Shown: one piece after another, positions 23,283 through 58,099 of the stretch
Layout of the letters: each line of letters begins with the position of its first letter
Numbering within the stretch: position 1 is the first letter of the stretch
Origin: Candidatus Kaistella beijingensis
GTDB lineage: Bacteria; Bacteroidota; Bacteroidia; Flavobacteriales; Weeksellaceae
Assembly (NCBI RefSeq): GCF_020084865.1
Contig: NZ_CP071953.1
Location: 1,798,001-1,862,000, forward strand
Length of the DNA: 64,000 bases
Direction: 5' to 3'
Position numbers and translations under genes: made by a program
Notes under the pieces: generated by a model
The model's input: the letters and a program-made list of their open reading frames with translations, nothing else
What the model was told of the DNA's origin: nothing
Databases searched by the model: none

Positions 23283-23292
23283 CGCTTATTAT

Positions 23293-23320
23293 AAATGATA
23301 ATTGGTAAATGATAATTGAT
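23293..23320. repeat. Tandem 14-bp repeat (two 7-bp units) upstream of thioredoxin
   Basis: AAATGATAATTGGT (23293-23306) is followed directly by a 13/14 identical copy (23307-23320). It lies 11 bp upstream of the thioredoxin start on the minus strand and belongs to the group of short-period arrays next to start codons in this window. Confidence 0.7.
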
Positions 23321-23364
23321 ATTTTTCGCAGCAAATTTTAGTCCAAATACCTTAAACTAAAGTT

Positions 23365-36933: not shown

Positions 36934-36941
36934 TATCTTTG
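36934..36941 (+). promoter_or_regulatory. Putative -7 promoter element of miaB
   Basis: TATCTTTG, a perfect TAnnTTTG match, 103 bp upstream of the miaB start. The 10-bp repeat array lies between it and the gene. Confidence 0.5.
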
Positions 36942-36950
36942 CACCCAAAC

Positions 36951-37040
36951 TTTTGGTTTGATATCATTTGATTTGGTTTGATATTGTTCAAACGACTTCA
37001 AACGACTTCAAACAATTTTCAAACCTTATCAAACTATTTT
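36951..37040. repeat. 10-bp-period repeat array with inverted arms, upstream of miaB
   Basis: Nine consecutive 10-base blocks. The first three end in TTTG (TTTTGGTTTG, ATATCATTTG, ATTTGGTTTG); the next six run ATATTGTTCA, AACGACTTCA twice, AACAATTTTC, AAACCTTATC, AAACTATTTT. The left arm TTTGAT is the complement of the right arm's ATCAAA, so the RNA could fold back. It ends 3 bases before the GTG start of miaB. Confidence 0.8.
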
Positions 37041-40033: not shown

Positions 40034-41317
40034 ATGAACGAACTACAATCCATAAAAAACCGCTTCGGAATTATCGGGAATTATCCCGCTTTGAACCGTG
40101 CTTTAGAAAAATCCATTCAAGTTGCACCAACCGATATTACCGTTTTAGTTATCGGCGAATCTGGAACAGGAAAAGAATTTATTCCCAAAATTATTCACGC
40201 GGAATCGAAAAGAAAACATCAACCTTATATTGTTGTAAACTGCGGTGCAATTCCCGAAGGAACGATAGATTCTGAACTTTTCGGTCACGAAAAAGGCGCT
40301 TTTACCGGCGCAACCACCACAAGAAAAGGTTATTTTGAAGTTGCAGACGGTGGAACGATTTTTCTTGATGAAGTTGGCGAACTTCCTTTGCAAACGCAAG
40401 TTAGGTTGCTTCGTGTTTTAGAAAGTGGCGAATTTATGAAAGTCGGTTCCTCGCAGATTCAAAAAACGGATGTGAGAATCGTTGCTGCAACGAATGTGAA
40501 TATGATGAAGGCGATTCAGGAAGGAAGATTTCGTGAAGATTTGTATTATCGCTTGAATACCGTTCAAATCGATATGCCGCCTTTAAGAGAAAGAAAAGGC
40601 GATATTCACTTACTTTTTAGGAAATTTGCCATCGATTTTGCGGAAAAATATAGGATGCCCGAAATTTATTTAAGTGATGATGGCGTTGATTATTTAGAAA
40701 ATTATTCATTTCCCGGAAACGTTCGTCAATTGAGAAATTTGGTGGAACAAATGACGGTTGTGGAACAAAATCGTGAAATTAATTCCACAAAATTATCGGA
40801 ATATATCCCGATGAATGCAAATCTTCCAGCGGTTGTAAATAAAAATCACGGTTCAATCTCGAATTCAGAATTTAATTCGGAAAGAGAGATTATGTACAAG
40901 ATTTTGTTCGACATGAGGAACGATTTGAATGATTTAAAATCCTTAACTTCGGAACTGATAAAAAATCGTGGGAATAACGAGTTCAGTCATCAGGAAAAGA
41001 ATTTGATAAACAGGGTTTTTACGCAGGAAACGGCTTCACAAAATCCAAATTCGCTGCTGTTTTTTGAAGGTAATAATCCGGCTCAAGTTCATCATCCAAC
41101 TTATGTTTCAGAACAAAATCCTGAATATGAAGATGTGGAAGATATAGAAATTGAGGAAGCAAAACCTGAAACGCTATCGCTTCAAAATAATGAGAGAGAA
41201 CTGATTGTGAAAGCGTTAGAAAAACACCGAGGTAGAAGAAACAAAGCCGCCGATGAATTGGGAATTTCTCAACGAACGCTTTACAGAAAGATAAAACAGT
41301 ATAATTTAGAAGAATGA
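40034..41317 (+). CDS. Sigma-54-dependent transcriptional activator
   Basis: 427-residue AAA+ activator: Walker A G-E-S-G-T-G-K-E (41-48), sigma-54 contact loop G-A-F-T-G-A (88-93), a central linker, and a C-terminal FIS-type helix-turn-helix ([15 protein letters not shown]). It has no receiver domain in front. The start at 40034 fits this family. It overlaps lptE by 4 bp (ATGA), so expression is linked to LPS transport. Confidence 0.92.
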
Positions 41318-41865
41318 AAAGTTTGAAGTCCGAAGTCCGAAGTCCGAAGAACCATTTGAAAGTCTTATTACTTGGCTCTTGGCTCTTTATACTTGGCTCT
41401 TGTTATTCCTTCACCGGCTCTTCTTTAAGCCCGGAAACCAAAACTATTCAAATCAATGATTTCCCAAATAATGCGGCATTGGTGAATCCAAGTTTGGCGC
41501 AACAATTTTCTACGGATATTCAAAATAGGTTTTTGCAGCGAACGACTTTAAAGGGAACCAAACAAAATCCTGATATTTTGATTGAGGGCGAAATCACGGA
41601 CTATTCAATTACTCCAACCACGATTTCGTCTGCACAAAATGCTCCCGGTGGAATGATTCAAGCCGCACAAAACAAGTTAACCATCGCAGTTAAAGTTCAC
41701 TACGAAAACAAGATAGAACCCGATAAAAGTTTCGACAGAACCTATTCCGATGAAGCGGTTTTCAGCAGTGATCTGGACATCAATGCTATCGAAGCATCGC
41801 AGGTAAAGGTGGTGAACGAAAGAATCATCAACAAAATTTTTAATGATATTGTAGCCAACTGGTAA
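41314..41865 (+). CDS. lptE: LPS assembly lipoprotein LptE
   Basis: 183-residue outer-membrane lipoprotein that partners LptD in LPS insertion. The lipobox L-G-S-C follows the hydrophobic signal. The DUF4136/LptE-like fold is supported by I-Q-I-N-D-F-P and [11 protein letters not shown]. The ATG overlaps the sigma-54 stop, but the N-terminal 30 codons are made of heptamer repeats, so the start could be the TTG at 41356, which opens a normal signal peptide. See the lptE repeat finding. Confidence 0.88.
41325..41405. repeat. Heptamer arrays inside the lptE signal-peptide coding region
   Basis: GAAGTCC occurs three times at 41325-41345 followed by a partial unit, and CTTGGCT-type units (CTTGGCT, CTTGGCT, CTTTATA, CTTGGCT, CTTGTTA) run at 41371-41405. 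Seven is not a multiple of three, so gain or loss of a unit would shift the lptE frame. Confidence 0.8.
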
Positions 41866-44804: not shown

Positions 44805-45185
44805 TTATTTTTTTGATTCACAAAGTTTTAGCAATTCTCTTTCCACTTCGTCATAATTTTGCGGAAGATTTTTCGAAGCCCAAAATATCATGGATAACGA
44901 ATGTTTTCCGAATTTATCAGCAAAAATTTCTTTATTTAAACGATAAGCTTCTCTCAGCAATCTTTTGATTCTGTTTCTGTGAACCGCTTTTTTGAAAAAT
45001 TTTTTAGAAACCGAAACTCCAGCTTTTTGATTTGAAATTTCAAAATTTTCTTGAGGTTTTTTCTCTGAATCGATTGAAATAATCCGCAGATTTCCACAGG
45101 AATTCCATTTGCCTTTCGCGAAAAGCAAATCGATTTCTCTCTTTTGTTTGAGTTTTTCCTTTCGTGGATATTTTTGGTTGGTCAT
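44805..45185 (-). CDS. rnpA: Ribonuclease P protein component
   Basis: 126-residue basic protein that assists the RNase P RNA in 5' trimming of tRNA precursors. The signature H-R-N-R-I-K-R-L-L-R-E-A lies at 69-80. It is followed leftwards by DUF4126 and preceded by tcdA (12 bp). Confidence 0.95.
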   Translation of the reverse strand: MTNQKYPRKEKLKQKREIDLLFAKGKWNSCGNLRIISIDSEKKPQENFEISNQKAGVSVSKKFFKKAVHRNRIKRLLREAYRLNKEIFADKFGKHSLSMIFWASKNLPQNYDEVERELLKLCESKK

Positions 45186-45197
45186 TTATTTTTAAAC

Positions 45198-51278: not shown

Positions 51279-51377
51279 CTAAAAAATCACAATCTTCAAA
51301 CGCTGATATTTATTTTTCAATATTTCAAATTTTCATAATCTGTTTTAAAAACCATAAATTTGCAGCTCGAAACCCTT

Positions 51378-51398
51378 ATCTCGTAACTCGTATCTCGC
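51378..51398. repeat. Heptamer array abutting the recN start codon
   Basis: ATCTCGT, AACTCGT, ATCTCGC in exact 7-bp steps, ending on the base before the recN ATG (51399). Confidence 0.7.
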
Positions 51399-53048
51399 AT
51401 GCTGTCAAGAATTTTCATTCAAAATTTTGCGCTTATCGATTCTCTTGAAATTACTTTAAACAAAGGTTTACAGGTAATCACGGGTGAAACAGGTGCCGGA
51501 AAATCGATCATTCTTGGAGCGTTGCGTTTGATTTTGGGGGAGAGAGCCGATGCCAAATCAATCCAAAATTCTGAAACCAAAAGTATTGTTGAAGCAGAAT
51601 TCAACATCAATGGAAATTTTAAAAATTTCTTTGAAGAAAACGATTTAGACTTTGAAAATCAAACGGTTATCCGAAGAGAAATTTTACCCACAGGAAAATC
51701 GAGAGCATTTGTAAACGATGTTCCCGTAACTTTGGAAACACTGAAGATGCTTTCGTCAAAACTCATTGATATCCACTCGCAATTTGAAACATCCAATTTG
51801 TTCGACGAGGAATATCAGTTTAAAATCATTGATGGACTATCCAAGAACAAGACGCTTATTCTTAGTTATCAGAAAGAATTTTCAGATTATAAAAAACTTC
51901 AGAAAGATTTAGAAAACTTCAAAAAACAACTTTCCGATGGAAATAAAGAAAGCGACTACAAAACTTTTCTGTTGAATGAATTGAATGAAGCAAACCTTGA
52001 CGAGCTCGATTTCGAGGAACTTCAAAACCAAATCAGTAAACAAGTAAATGCAGAAGCCATCACCGAAAACCTCTCCCAAATCTTTACTAAACTCGACTTG
52101 GAGGAAATCGGAATTCTGGATTCCTTTGCTGAAATCAAAAATAAACTTTCAAAAGTGGCGGGATTGTCGCATGAATTCTCTCTTTTAAATCAGCGTTTAG
52201 AAGAAAATTTTCTTGAGTTTAAAGACATTATTTTCGAGCTTCAAAACGGAGCAGAAAAAATGGAGACCAGTCCCGAAATTTTATTTGAATTAAATTCTAA
52301 AATCAACAGAATCAATTCGCTATTTGTAAAGCACAATGTGAATTCTGTTGAGGATTTAAAGAAAATCCGTGATGATATTTCCGGCGAACAAAGCGGTTTT
52401 GCGGAACTTGAAAATGATATTGCCGATATTGAAGAGAAAATTGCCGATGCAACAATCCGATTGGAAGAAATTTCTTCCGATTTATCGAAAAACCGAAAAA
52501 AATCAGTTCCTGTTTTCATTAAAAAAGTCGAAGTTTTGCTGAAGCAACTCGGTCTTGAAAAAGCAAAAATCGAGGTCGAACTTTCAGACAGTCAAAACTT
52601 TAACCAATTCGGCAAAGAAAATATTCAACTGTTGTTTCAGGCGAATTCGGGATTTCCGTTAAAGCCGATCCAAACCGCAATTTCTGGTGGAGAAAGGTCA
52701 AGAGTGATGCTTTCCATCAAAAAACTGATGGCGGAAAATGCGGAACTTCCCACTTTAATTCTAGACGAGATCGACACAGGAGTTTCCGGGAAAGTCGCCG
52801 AGGAAATGGGAAATGTGATGAAAGAAATGGCTGAAAACATGCAGCTCATCGTCATTACGCACCTCGCTCAAGTCGCCGCAAAGGGAAACAACAATTACAA
52901 AGTAGTGAAACAAGACGTTTCCGGGAAAACGCAATCGAACATTATTTCTTTAAACCAAGACGAGAAATTACAGGAAATCGCACAACTTTTGTCGGGCTCA
53001 AAAATTACGGAAGCCGCTGTTTTACAGGCGAAGGAATTGATGAAGTAA
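51399..53048 (+). CDS. recN: DNA repair protein RecN
   Basis: 549-residue SMC-like ATPase for double-strand-break repair. Walker A G-E-T-G-A-G-K-S near residue 30-37, coiled-coil arms in the middle, and C-terminal S-G-G-E-R-S-R-V with Walker B L-I-L-D-E-I-D-T. It closes the bamD-rpoZ-coaBC-DUF4835-recN cluster. Confidence 0.95.
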   Translation: MLSRIFIQNFALIDSLEITLNKGLQVITGETGAGKSIILGALRLILGERADAKSIQNSETKSIVEAEFNINGNFKNFFEENDLDFENQTVIRREILPTGKSRAFVNDVPVTLETLKMLSSKLIDIHSQFETSNLFDEEYQFKIIDGLSKNKTLILSYQKEFSDYKKLQKDLENFKKQLSDGNKESDYKTFLLNELNEANLDELDFEELQNQISKQVNAEAITENLSQIFTKLDLEEIGILDSFAEIKNKLSKVAGLSHEFSLLNQRLEENFLEFKDIIFELQNGAEKMETSPEILFELNSKINRINSLFVKHNVNSVEDLKKIRDDISGEQSGFAELENDIADIEEKIADATIRLEEISSDLSKNRKKSVPVFIKKVEVLLKQLGLEKAKIEVELSDSQNFNQFGKENIQLLFQANSGFPLKPIQTAISGGERSRVMLSIKKLMAENAELPTLILDEIDTGVSGKVAEEMGNVMKEMAENMQLIVITHLAQVAAKGNNNYKVVKQDVSGKTQSNIISLNQDEKLQEIAQLLSGSKITEAAVLQAKELMK

Positions 53049-54050: not shown

Positions 54051-54380
54051 ATGATAAAAGTAAGCGATCAAGCAAAAGAAAAAGCCATTCAGTTGATGAC
54101 CGAAGACGGCTTCAAACCTTTTGAGGATTACATAAGAGTCGGCGTGAAAAGCGGTGGCTGCTCCGGTTTGGAATATGTTTTAAAGTTTGATAACCAAAAA
54201 ACAGATTCCGACCAAGTTTTTGAAGATAATGGAATTAAAATCATTGTCGATAAAAAATCCATCCTTTATCTTGCAGGAACAACGCTTGAATTTTCAGGAG
54301 GATTGAATGGAAAAGGATTTGTGTTCAACAATCCAAATGCGAACAGAACTTGTGGATGCGGAGAATCTTTTAGTCTATAA
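54051..54380 (+). CDS. sufA: Fe-S assembly scaffold/carrier SufA-like
   Basis: 109 residues with the three conserved Cys of A-type carriers: G-G-C-S-G near residue 38-42 and T-C-G-C-G-E-S-F at the C-terminus. It carries Fe-S clusters to targets. It is the first gene of the suf operon, 3 bp from sufB. Confidence 0.93.
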   Translation: MIKVSDQAKEKAIQLMTEDGFKPFEDYIRVGVKSGGCSGLEYVLKFDNQKTDSDQVFEDNGIKIIVDKKSILYLAGTTLEFSGGLNGKGFVFNNPNANRTCGCGESFSL

Positions 54381-54383
54381 ATT

Positions 54384-55832
54384 ATGGCGAAGTATACAGA
54401 AGATGATTTAAGAGAAGATCTTAAAACAAAAGAATATGAAGCGGGATTTTATACCGATATCGAGTATGAAGATTTCCCGGTTGGCTTGAATGAAGATATC
54501 GTCCGTATGATTTCGGCAAAGAAAAATGAACCGGAATGGATGACGGAATGGAGATTGGAAGCTTTCCGAGTTTGGTTGAAAATGGAAGAACCAAATTGGG
54601 CTAATGTTACGTACGAAAAGCCTGATTTTCAGGCGATAAGATATTACGCAGCACCAAAGAAAAAACCTGAATTGGCAAGTTTGGACGAAGTGGATCCTGA
54701 ATTATTGAGAACTTTCGAAAGATTGGGAATCAACATCGAAGAACAAAAAAGATTGACCGGAGTTGCAGTTGATATCGTAATGGATTCCGTTTCGGTGAAA
54801 ACGACTTTTCAGGAAACCTTAAAGGAAAAAGGAATTATTTTCTGTCCGATTTCTGAAGCGATTCAAAATTATCCGGATTTAGTTAAAAAATATATCGGAA
54901 AGGTGGTTCCAAGAGGCGATAATTTCTACGCAGCCTTAAATTCTGCAGTGTTTTCTGATGGAAGTTTCTGTTACATTCCAAAAGGCGTGAAATGTCCGAT
55001 GGAACTTTCCACGTATTTCAGAATCAACCAATCCGGAAGCGGACAGTTTGAAAGAACGTTGGTTATTGCAGATGAAGGAAGCTACGTTTCCTATCTCGAA
55101 GGCTGCACTGCGCCGTCAAGAGACGAGAATCAACTTCACGCCGCCGTTGTTGAATTAATCGCAATGGATGGAGCGGAAATTAAATATTCCACCGTTCAAA
55201 ACTGGTATCCCGGAGATGCAGAAGGAAAAGGTGGCGTTTTCAATTTCGTAACAAAACGAGGAATTTGTGAGAATAATGCAAAAATTTCCTGGACGCAGGT
55301 GGAAACCGGTTCTGCCGTAACTTGGAAATATCCGAGCTGTATTTTGAAAGGAGACAATTCAATCGGCGAATTTTATTCCATCGCGGTGACCAATCATCAT
55401 CAATATGCAGATACAGGAACGAAGATGATTCACATCGGAAAAAACACGAAATCTACCATTATTTCCAAGGGAATTTCGGCAGGAAAATCCAACAATTCTT
55501 ACCGCGGTTTGGTGAAAGTAATGCCGACTGCGAAAGGAGCGAGAAATTTTTCGCAGTGTGATTCGCTTTTGATGGGAAATGAATGTGGAGCGCACACTTT
55601 TCCTTACATCGAAATCAAAGATCCTTCTGCACAGTTGGAACACGAAGCCACTACTTCAAAAATCGGTGAAGACCAAATTTTCTACTGTAACCAGAGAGGA
55701 ATCGACACGGAACGAGCAATCGCCTTGATTGTCAATGGTTTCGGAAAAGAAGTGTTAAATAAACTTCCAATGGAATTTGCTATCGAAGCACAGAAATTAT
55801 TGGAAATCTCATTGGAGGGAAGTGTCGGATAA
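54384..55832 (+). CDS. sufB: Fe-S assembly protein SufB
   Basis: 482-residue scaffold component of the SufBCD complex with the usual beta-helix and conserved C-terminal block [12 protein letters not shown] and G-A-H-T-F-P-Y. Two sufficiently conserved Cys remain (C-T-A-P-S-R near 245). It is followed after 109 bp by sufC. Confidence 0.95.
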
Positions 55833-55838
55833 AATTAA

Positions 55839-55934
55839 TTTGAAATTGTTTGAAATTTTGAAACCGTGCGATAAAGTTCGTTTTTTCAATCAAAATCAGA
55901 CAAAATCAAACAAAGTCAAATAAAATCAAACGAG
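55839..55934. repeat. 10-bp-period repeat array between sufB and sufC
   Basis: Left arm TTTGAAAT at 55839 and 55849 with a related TTTTGAAA at 55857; a centre containing AAACCGT; right arm of ten-base blocks CAAAATCAGA, CAAAATCAAA, CAAAGTCAAA, TAAAATCAAA (55891-55930). It ends about 12 bases before the sufC ATG and lies inside the operon. Confidence 0.8.
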
Positions 55935-55941
55935 TTATAGA

Positions 55942-56685
55942 ATGTTAACGATCAATAACCTACACGCCGAAATCGAAAACGGCGTAGAAATCTTAAAAGG
56001 AATTAATTTAAAAATCAATCCGGGCGAAGTTCACGCAATTATGGGACCGAACGGAGCAGGAAAATCCACCCTTTCCTCTGTAATTGCAGGAAAAGAAGAT
56101 TACGTAGTAACCGATGGTGAAATTATTTTCGAAGGTGAAGACATCGTGGAAGATGCGCCGGAAGAAAGAGCGCACAAAGGAATCTTCATGTCGTTTCAAT
56201 ATCCGGTGGAAATTCCTGGAGTTTCGGTGACAAACTTCATCAAAGCAGCGATGAACGAAACGAGAAAAGCAAACGGACAGGAAGATATGCCCGCAAAAGA
56301 AATGCTTGGTTTGATCCGCGAAAACTCCGAAAAATTGGGAATTAAAAAAGATTTTCTTTCTCGTTCATTGAATGAAGGATTTTCAGGCGGCGAGAAAAAA
56401 AGAAACGAAATTTTCCAAATGTTGATGTTGAATCCAAAACTGGCAATCCTCGACGAAACTGATTCAGGTTTGGATATCGACGCTTTGAGAATTGTTGCAG
56501 ACGGCGTAAATTCTTTCAAAAATGAAGGAAACGCTGTTCTTTTAATCACCCATTACCAAAGACTTTTGGATTATATTCAACCTGATTTCGTGCACGTTTT
56601 AGCTGATGGAAAAATCATCAAAACAGGCGACAAAACTTTAGCCTTAGAATTGGAAGAAAAAGGTTACGATTGGCTTTTAAATTAG
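55942..56685 (+). CDS. sufC: Fe-S assembly ATPase SufC
   Basis: 247-residue ABC ATPase of the SufBCD complex. Walker A G-P-N-G-A-G-K-S-T at about 36-44, signature S-G-G-E-K-K-R near 150, Walker B L-A-I-L-D-E-T-D-S-G. The gene starts just after the 10-bp repeat array. Confidence 0.95.
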   Translation: MLTINNLHAEIENGVEILKGINLKINPGEVHAIMGPNGAGKSTLSSVIAGKEDYVVTDGEIIFEGEDIVEDAPEERAHKGIFMSFQYPVEIPGVSVTNFIKAAMNETRKANGQEDMPAKEMLGLIRENSEKLGIKKDFLSRSLNEGFSGGEKKRNEIFQMLMLNPKLAILDETDSGLDIDALRIVADGVNSFKNEGNAVLLITHYQRLLDYIQPDFVHVLADGKIIKTGDKTLALELEEKGYDWLLN

Positions 56686-56778
56686 TTTGAAATCGTTTGA
56701 AAATTTGATATGGCTTGAAATCCTTTTCTAAACCGTATCAAACAAGTTCAAATCATATCAAACAAAATCAAACAAAAA
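56685..56778. repeat. 10-bp-period repeat array between sufC and sufD
   Basis: Ten-base blocks with left arm GTTTGAAAT (56685, 56695) and centre TCTAAACCGTATC, right arm of ATCAAAC units (56738, 56758, 56768) with an intermediate TTCAAAT (56748). It ends 2 bases before the sufD ATG at 56780. Confidence 0.8.
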
Positions 56779-56779
56779 C

Positions 56780-58099
56780 ATGGCTTTATTAGAAAACATA
56801 CAAAACAATCATTCGTCTTTTCTTGAAACGTTGAAGCATAGCTTCTTGGATGAAAACCGTAAATCTGCTTTGAAAAACTTCTTTCAACAAGGTTTTCCCA
56901 CCAAAAAAGATGAGGAATACAAATACACCAATCTTCGCGAAATCACCGAAAAGAACTACAATTTCTTTCCGAACGAACACCACACGATTTCAAAACAGCA
57001 AATAGACGAACTGCATTTAGGCGAAGAAAATTTTGATTGGATTGTGTTTGTAAATGGGCATCTTCACAAGGAATTATCAAAAATTTCTATTGAAAATGTG
57101 GAACTTCTTTCGTTCAATTACGCATTGAACAGCCCTGAACACAAAGACGTTTTCGAAAAATATTTCAACACCATCGCCAACAAAGATTTGGCTTTCGTGA
57201 ATTTGAATTTGGCATACGTAAAAACAGGATTTTTCCTGAAAGTTCCAAAAAATGTGGTGATAGAAAAACCAATTCACGTTTTCTATCTCTCTCAAAATCA
57301 AGATGAAAACACGTTTTACAACACAAGAAATCTTTTAATCGCGGAAGAAGGTTCCAAAATTGAAATTATCGAAAGTCACCACAATTTTGACGATACTTTT
57401 GTTTTAACCAATTCCGTGACGGAAATCTTTACCTACCAAAATGCAAAAGCAGATTGGCATAAATTGCAAAATGACAGCGACACTTCCTATTTAATCGACC
57501 ACACTTTTGCAAAACAGGAACGCGACAGTTTGACGACAGTGAACACCTTTTCTTTCGGTGGAAAAATCGTGAGAAATAATTTGGATTTCATTCATAACGG
57601 ACAGAATATCAACTCTTTCATGAACGGAATCACGATTATCGGGAATGAGCAGCTGGTTGACCATCACACCGCAGTTCACCACAACACGCCGAATTGCGAA
57701 TCTTACCAAAATTACAAGGGAATTTTCAAGGACAAATCTCACGGCGTTTTCAACGGGAAAGTTTTTGTAGATAAAATTGCTCAAAAAACCAATGCTTATC
57801 AACAGAATAACAACGTTTTACTCAACGAAGGCGCAACAATCGACACCAAACCCCAACTTGAAATTTTCGCCGATGATGTGAAATGTTCGCACGGTTGTAC
57901 CGTTGGTCAGTTGAACGACGACGCTTTGTTTTACTTAAGAGCAAGAGGAATTTCCAAGAAAGAAGCGCAAGCTTTATTACTGTACGCTTTTGCTAATGAT
58001 GCAATGGAAAACATTGATATCGAACCACTTAAATTAAAAATATCCAAACTTTTAGCAGAAAAATTAGAAGTGAATTTGGCTTTTGAGGATATTTTTTAA
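56780..58099 (+). CDS. sufD: Fe-S assembly protein SufD
   Basis: 439-residue partner of SufB and SufC with the same beta-helix layout (G-V-F-N-G-K-V-F-V and K-C-S-H-G-C-T-V-G). It completes SufBCD. No sufS or sufE gene follows in this window. A terminator lies 22 bp after the stop. Confidence 0.95.
   Translation: MALLENIQNNHSSFLETLKHSFLDENRKSALKNFFQQGFPTKKDEEYKYTNLREITEKNYNFFPNEHHTISKQQIDELHLGEENFDWIVFVNGHLHKELSKISIENVELLSFNYALNSPEHKDVFEKYFNTIANKDLAFVNLNLAYVKTGFFLKVPKNVVIEKPIHVFYLSQNQDENTFYNTRNLLIAEEGSKIEIIESHHNFDDTFVLTNSVTEIFTYQNAKADWHKLQNDSDTSYLIDHTFAKQERDSLTTVNTFSFGGKIVRNNLDFIHNGQNINSFMNGITIIGNEQLVDHHTAVHHNTPNCESYQNYKGIFKDKSHGVFNGKVFVDKIAQKTNAYQQNNNVLLNEGATIDTKPQLEIFADDVKCSHGCTVGQLNDDALFYLRARGISKKEAQALLLYAFANDAMENIDIEPLKLKISKLLAEKLEVNLAFEDIF

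Follow-up and report, generated by a model that had tools for sequence, protein, structure and literature searches.

Inverted 10-bp arrays in the suf operon gaps of Candidatus Kaistella beijingensis and their possible kinship with four-helix-bundle gene elements

Two gaps within the suf operon of Candidatus Kaistella beijingensis, one between sufB and sufC and the other between sufC and sufD, each contain a pair of oppositely oriented arrays built from a degenerate 10-bp word, and another copy precedes miaB in the same window (that is, the whole stretch of DNA analyzed, 64,000 nucleotides). We put at about one half the probability that these three sites belong to a class of stem-loop elements between cistrons whose full form carries a four-helix-bundle (FHB) gene that they lack, with the start-side arm acting as a leader. 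FHB refers here to the four-helix-bundle protein that 23S rRNA intervening sequences (IVSs) encode (PF05635/TIGR02436).

In the model that we propose, a complete member of the class would consist of an upstream stop codon, a left arm, an FHB gene, a right arm and a downstream start codon. Each arm would repeat a short word, oppositely oriented on the two sides, with the word varying by locus, and one such word, TCAAAYNANW, would have multiplied in this lineage. Between sufC and sufD, an FHB gene would once have been present and then have been lost here. In the transcript, the left arm would pair with the first units of the right arm to form an imperfect stem between cistrons, which RNase III might cut and which might alter the SufB:SufC:SufD ratio, and the last right-arm units would remain mostly single-stranded, presenting a G-poor, A-rich leader for sufC or sufD.

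Arrays in the suf gaps and before miaB

A preliminary description, made from the letters of the window, gave the spacing as 3 bp between sufA and sufB, 109 bp between sufB and sufC, and 94 bp between sufC and sufD, and these sizes are correct. The inverted 10-bp arrays that it reported in both larger gaps are real, and their units can be located in the sequence (Table 1). Between sufB and sufC, TTTGA begins at 55839, 55849 and 55857, and TCAAA at 55890, 55906, 55916 and 55926, with TCAGA at 55896 as one extra unit of the right arm. Between sufC and sufD, the corresponding positions are 56686, 56696 and 56704 for TTTGA and 56738, 56748, 56758 and 56768 for TCAAA. Both gaps therefore share a plan of three TTTGA units starting 0 to at most 7 nt past the stop codon, a short center, four TCAAA units and an ATG. 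The AAACCGT that was described as a common center is not one: it ends the left arm in the sufB-sufC gap, adjoins the right arm in the sufC-sufD gap, and is missing from the miaB copy and from both suf gaps of a congener, G028. The miaB copy spans approximately positions 36957 to 37033, after the promoter-like sequence TATCTTTG and before miaB.

Table 1. Window positions of the suf genes, the two gap elements and the miaB copy
Feature	Position	Strand	Basis
sufA (IscA/SufA-type scaffold)	54051..54380	+	ORF; TIGR00049
sufB	54384..55832	+	ORF; NCBIfam name SufB
sufB-C element, left (stop-side) arm, three TTTGA units	55839..55863	+	sequence reading
sufB-C element, center; CGATAAAGTTCG common to G028 sufB-C gap	55864..55885	.	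sequence comparison
sufB-C element, right (start-side) arm, 10-bp TCAAAYNANW array; end is 11 nt before sufC ATG	55886..55931	+	
sufC	55942..56685	+	ORF; NCBIfam name SufC
sufC-D element, left arm; first base adjoins sufC stop codon	56686..56720	+	sequence reading
sufC-D element, center	56721..56737	.	sequence comparison
sufC-D element, right arm, four TCAAA at 10-bp steps; end is 7 nt before sufD ATG	56738..56772	+	
sufD	56780..58099	+	ORF; NCBIfam name SufD
TATCTTTG, promoter-like motif 5' of miaB array	36934..36941	+	
miaB leader element, left arm	36957..36985	+	sequence reading
miaB leader element, right arm, five TCAAA units with a single step of 11 bp	36988..37033	+	miaB = TIGR01574

Several other explanations of the suf gaps were considered. 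A coding explanation was rejected because the ORF listing has no frame of at least 80 aa inside either gap, and neither gap center in the window contains a PF05635 gene, for which these centers are too short. Searches with Rfam 15 found no structured RNA at the gathering score in window positions 30000-60000. A promoter inside the gaps was also rejected, because the Bacteroidota promoter motif TANNTTTG has no match in 55833-55941 or 56686-56779. The gaps moreover lie within one string of genes; promoter function there is unlikely, as the preliminary description had judged.

The arms of each suf gap are complementary and made of one word, with the left arm following a stop codon and the right arm preceding a start codon between co-directional neighbors. 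Each of the 15 two-armed sites tested is predicted to fold more stably than the mean of its shuffled sequences (z from -1.65 to -7.01). The suf gaps have z values of -1.65 and -5.55, with about 17-19 expected arm-arm pairs when 0, 30 or 80 nt of flank is included, and we infer from these models that their arms could form a stem in the cell. Within the 10-bp family, arms taken from the same site fold no better than swapped arms (-23.2 versus -24.8, p 0.94, n = 15) and exhibit no covariation, so selection for locus-specific hairpins in this family is not supported. Because the pairing of arms comes from their shared word, we do not claim that the stem is under selection. At least 13 nt immediately before the start codon are predicted to be unpaired in 8 of 11 two-armed sites, and the predicted unpaired value of the leader is 0.94 for sufC-sufD, 0.47 for sufB-sufC (with 80 nt of flank added) and 0.30 for miaB.

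Arrays of other short words also occur in the window. Positions 41325-41402 carry (GAAGTCC)n followed by (CTTGGCT)n, which are arms built from different words and close to where the ORF at 41314-41865 starts. A one-armed array of another word, of the type CTCGTAACTCGTATCTCG, occupies 51366-51398 and adjoins the ORF at 51399-53048. On the minus strand, short-word arrays at 23291-23321 and 45160-45190 (CAATTATCATTTA; GGAAGTCCGAAG) are situated beside minus-strand ORFs.

A dispersed repeat family and its start-side arm

The window's own genome (G000, 2.82 Mb) contains 43 matches to a pattern of four TCAAA units with at most one mismatch, versus 0 for a reversed control pattern, and 99 versus 17 with at most three mismatches. 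The earlier statement that the arrays exceed chance is thus borne out. The claim of three copies in the window is right to the extent that the third is found in the miaB leader, but the construct is not limited to three, as we read 40 array sites in this genome. By our reading, TCAAA is on the gene strand 5' of a start codon in 35 of the 40. Other placements include two sites in coding sequence (L035 and L044) and two on the 3' side of genes (L041 and L043), and L047 is the single site with the opposite orientation. Both arms are present at 9 of the 40 sites, and 31 have a TCAAA arm without a TTTGA arm; at some of the latter, the left arm is built from another word. Among 65 units of the 10-bp word TCAAAYNANW, position 6 is C or T in every unit, position 8 is A in 60, and position 10 is A or T in 60.

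In the two coding-sequence sites (at approximately 1017425 and 2376658 of the genome, for L035 and L044, respectively), the 10-bp array is in frame, and that of L044 resembles the linker of an ABC-F-type ATPase.

The genes that follow the arrays are many and, from a reading of their products, unrelated. Copies at sufC, sufD, miaB and a RimO-like gene (L038) could have indicated an Fe-S regulon; this idea was rejected because most of the 40 sites, whose translations were read by eye, have no Fe-S link. Relative to promoters, the array is downstream at miaB and L018, and upstream at L223 and L225 of G028.

The arrays could also be binding sites for a DNA-binding protein that contacts one face of the helix. 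The fixed 10-bp step, invariant core, inverted arms and lack of arm covariation would all fit such a protein. However, the one-armed sites have a strong tendency to point in the direction of the gene, sites occur in transcribed gaps after promoters, and the products of the downstream genes reveal no visible common theme, which makes this explanation very improbable in our estimation.

Among 36 genomes of the genus, the pattern was matched 43 times in G000, 96 times in G028, 5 times in G005, and once each in G023, G026 and G029, and the control pattern was matched once each in G009 and G026. The other 30 genomes of the genus and 24 genomes from outside it have no match to the four-unit pattern. 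Within the genus, the array family is thus limited to G000, G028 and, weakly, G005.

Such lineage-specific bursts might be expected if the arrays were neutral minisatellites, in which slippage and template switching expand short words wherever a gap tolerates them. The degenerate units, the many other words found in other gaps, and the absence of arm covariation are likewise compatible with this process. We nevertheless regard it as quite unlikely, because the one-armed sites are strongly biased in strand and position, because one word at about 40 places with varied spacers is not expected from local slippage, and because unit positions 6, 8 and 10 are constrained (to C/T, A and A/T among the 65 units).

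In the phylum Bacteroidota, translation starts without Shine-Dalgarno pairing. To characterize the array leaders, we used 31 of the 35 start-proximal sites, leaving out L005, L016, L023 and L028. The distance from the last TCAAA to the ATG has a median of 11 nt and is 7-16 nt in 21 of the 31 sites. Array leaders contain 4.3% G versus 12.3% in 45 array-free window genes, and the minimum free energy of positions -40 to +30 is -2.55 versus -5.91 (p 6e-7), in comparisons whose control starts are unrefined first-start ORF calls that may be misplaced. The phase of the 10-nt unit relative to the ATG falls in one half at 23 of the 31 sites (p 0.005), a bias that was looked at post hoc. The low G content of the start-side arm and its usual end point, 7-16 nt before the ATG, make a role as a translation leader likely. 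The preliminary description had suggested a function in mRNA stability, processing or translation of sufC and sufD; a role at the RNA or translation level fits the placement of TCAAA on the sense strand before starts, but the element is not specific to suf or to operons.

The same data could be explained by leader arrays that have no tie to FHB genes. TCAAAYNANW would then have been copied to positions just before start codons, where unstructured, A/C-rich sequence aids initiation, and TTTGA arms would be a by-product. Sense placement near starts, the distance to the ATG, the low G content and low structure, and the phase bias all agree with this explanation, as does the presence of sense TCAAA before a start in 26 of the 31 one-armed sites. 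The available part of a study of Flavobacterium johnsoniae is also in agreement, in that adenines at -14 to -11 together with low structure favor initiation, for which contact with ribosomal protein S1 was proposed (PMC6847099). On the other hand, some sites are 5' of promoters, at 3' ends or in coding sequence, a leader needs no 10-bp periodicity, and the possibly misplaced control starts weaken the leader comparison. Two-armed sites that begin at a stop codon, as well as arms around FHB genes, are left unexplained. We therefore consider leaders without an FHB tie to be an unlikely account of the whole.

Right-arm composition and spacing (RNA that contains C, is low in G and has UC at 10-nt intervals) also resemble features that support Rho utilization, and the arrays might in principle be rut or other attenuation sites. 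Ribosomes would shield this RNA, however, since the array lies against the start codon of a gene that is translated, and attenuation is extremely unlikely.

Four-helix-bundle genes and the suf gaps of congeners

The case for our preferred reading, in which the suf gaps and the miaB leader are gene-less relatives of FHB elements, includes FHB genes with similar arms in the sufC-sufD gap of congeners. In a suf tree, G000 groups with G016, G028, G008 and G005 (support 99/98), and the nearest named relatives of SufC are those of Chryseobacterium, Epilithonimonas and other Weeksellaceae, up to 91%. We read 30 suf loci from the 36 genomes of the genus. Comparison of the gaps in related genomes, which the preliminary description had proposed as a check, gave a mixed outcome in which its refuting condition, unrelated sequence in the same gaps, half applies: the sufB-sufC array is present in only two of the 30 loci (G000 and G028) and the rest differ, and the sufC-sufD gap has TTTGA straight after the stop codon in 17 of the 30.

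In the other genomes, the sufB-sufC gap contains unrelated sequence, an FHB gene (G016), or small gene pairs (G026, G031 and G010), and across the genus this gap looks like a hot spot for insertions. By eye, the pairs (L176 in G026, L179 in G031 and L178 in G010) are toxin-antitoxin-like.

The sufC-sufD gap contains an FHB gene or pieces of one in seven of the 30 loci (G012, G016, G017, G026, G010, G029 and G013). In five of these seven (G017, G026, G010, G029 and G013), the left arm is TTTGAAATTTGATGTTTGAAATTTGA, and an intact or shortened FHB gene lies behind the TTTGAAATTTGA left arm. TCAAA words are present in the right arm in all four gaps of these five that were seen whole. The G016 copy is broken and has no left arm, and the G017 and G026 genes are truncated in frame. 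The arms of the sufC-sufD FHB genes are of the TTTGAAATTTGATG type and have no 10-bp period. In an FHB tree, six of the seven sufC-sufD genes group together (89/86), and they form one subgroup with a G028 gene (99/100). The broken G016 piece is on a long branch, and all seven are on one branch in only 36% of bootstrap trees. We infer that an old FHB element resided in the sufC-sufD gap and was lost in the lineage of the window.

The G028 gene (L214, 1473669-1473980) is flanked by the 10-bp arrays of the window, with TTTGA before it and TCAAA after it, and is the only FHB gene that we saw with true 10-bp arms. Its profile names are TIGR02436 and PF05635, a sequence comparison places 2gsc closest to it among solved structures (E 1e-4), and its reading frame is broken near the end.

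FHB genes are common in general. PF05635 was detected in all 36 genomes of the genus, with 1-11 matches each (three in G000); of 118 genomes sampled from the phylum, 90 have it. Reading of the flanks found short-word arms around most FHB genes, the word changing from one locus to the next; two of the three FHB genes in G000 were read, and their arms consist of other words. Of 68 FHB loci, 54 are bordered by two genes that point the same way. For 45 FHB loci of the genus, the duplex energy of 150-nt flanks is -50.9 for own pairs versus -37.9 for swapped pairs (permutation p 5e-5), and for 30 FHB loci of other genera it is -57.3 versus -47.7 (p 5e-5); these loci are the best-scoring matches of each search and not a random draw. 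The same comparison gave no difference for sufC (p 0.38, n = 30) or window genes (p 0.52, n = 48). Individually, 13 of the 45 loci and 8 of the 30 are at or below 0.05, and L214 has an own-versus-swapped rank of 0.114. The genus set left out the duplicates L201 and L213, matches with an E value above 1e-15 and genes that lay too near the end of their locus, and kept L173 and L176 despite their truncated FHB frames.

Two observations concern individual FHB loci. At L205, an FHB element with GTTGATGG arms has a right arm that continues in frame into MetH-like sequence, as if a gene were split. In front of a thiolase-like gene (L186-L188, L191, L193, L198, L199, L201, L202, L206 and L209), two FHB clades occur, one with TTAGA-type and the other with GAGAC-type arms; this pattern suggests that whole elements may replace one another in the gap.

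Several data bear on turnover and possible mobility. At tpiA, the one locus compared apart from suf, a one-armed array is present only in G000 among 12 genomes, in none of which was a trace of an FHB gene found at tpiA. Among 16 array loci of G028 (from its 96 matches), 11 share no genes with a G000 array locus and five do; the five correspond to four gaps, namely sufB-sufC, sufC-sufD, miaB and a uridine-phosphorylase-like gene. When FHB genes in different gaps are at least 0.70 identical, a cut-off picked after the table was seen, the six such pairs share a mean of 43.8 six-mers versus 16-21 in lower bins (p 0.005). At an identity of at least 0.50, no link to the arms was detected (p 0.60 for 235 pairs). 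Over all pairs, the rank correlation is slightly negative (-0.09). Of the six high-identity pairs, L190 with L196 and L190 with L189 do not fit; the four that do fit represent two cases (L192 versus L194, L195 and L197; L204 versus L205). As patterns of shared words, these data are suggestive only that FHB elements may move together with their arms.

Several observations count against reading the suf gaps as FHB-related elements: the arms do not covary, 31 of the 40 sites have no TTTGA arm, G000 has only three FHB genes, true 10-bp arms were seen at a single FHB gene, the own-versus-swapped difference reaches 0.05 at a minority of individual loci, the leaders of sufB-sufC (with 80 nt of flank) and miaB are predicted to be half and mostly paired, respectively, and the tpiA array comes with no trace of an FHB gene. 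A broader scenario can also be imagined, in which Bacteroidota operons have been colonized by selfish intercistronic elements, relatives of rRNA IVSs, that move with an FHB protein and arms of a private word, survive because the start-side arm is a portable leader, and, as copies of one word that lack the gene, can multiply in bursts within a genome. We offer this scenario as speculation that is unlikely to hold in full.

Relation to known systems

Searches of the open-licence text of PubMed Central listed no title that describes these elements, and passages of PMC5395568 say nothing about them. According to the portion of a report available to us, the PF05635 domain is functionally uncharacterized (PMC11270868). 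PF05635 proteins are abundant, and consistent short-word arms in operon gaps would give this family a genomic setting. The same anatomy, if consistent, would provide a handle on the mobility of the FHB family and account for degenerate intergenic repeats that are widespread here. If our preferred reading is true, an insert would be tolerated between essential co-transcribed genes by bringing its own unstructured leader.

REP/BIME dispersed palindromic repeats are present as many short extragenic copies, often between co-transcribed genes, and the likeness to the present arrays is to this general description. Unlike them, the arrays consist of a degenerate 10-bp tandem word, are often one-armed and are oriented to the next start. 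Avd of diversity-generating retroelements is a lead only: PF05635 resembles Avd, according to part of a published account (PMC10053308), but no template or variable repeat was seen at the FHB loci. The closest Bacteroidota counterparts are FHB genes of TIGR02436/PF05635, which in congeners occupy the same sufC-sufD gap between similar TTTGA/TCAAA arms. Both gaps of the window are without an FHB gene, and we therefore propose kinship or descent, not possession.

The 23S rRNA IVSs provide the remaining comparison. In the Coxiella IVS, as presented in the accessible text of one study, the S23 (IVP) gene is in the loop of a 28-bp stem that is cut by RNase III, and tandem heptamers precede the S23 start (PMC4990558). 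Complementary arms around an IVP-family gene in the loop, as observed in congeners and G028, and the decay and loss of that gene are IVS-like, and the Coxiella heptamers before S23 recall the short-word arrays. In contrast to an IVS, the arms in the window are arrays of degenerate short words, and the elements are situated between sufB, sufC and sufD. The suf-gap element thus has IVS-like anatomy but is not an IVS, because it lies outside rRNA and has no IVP gene in its loop.
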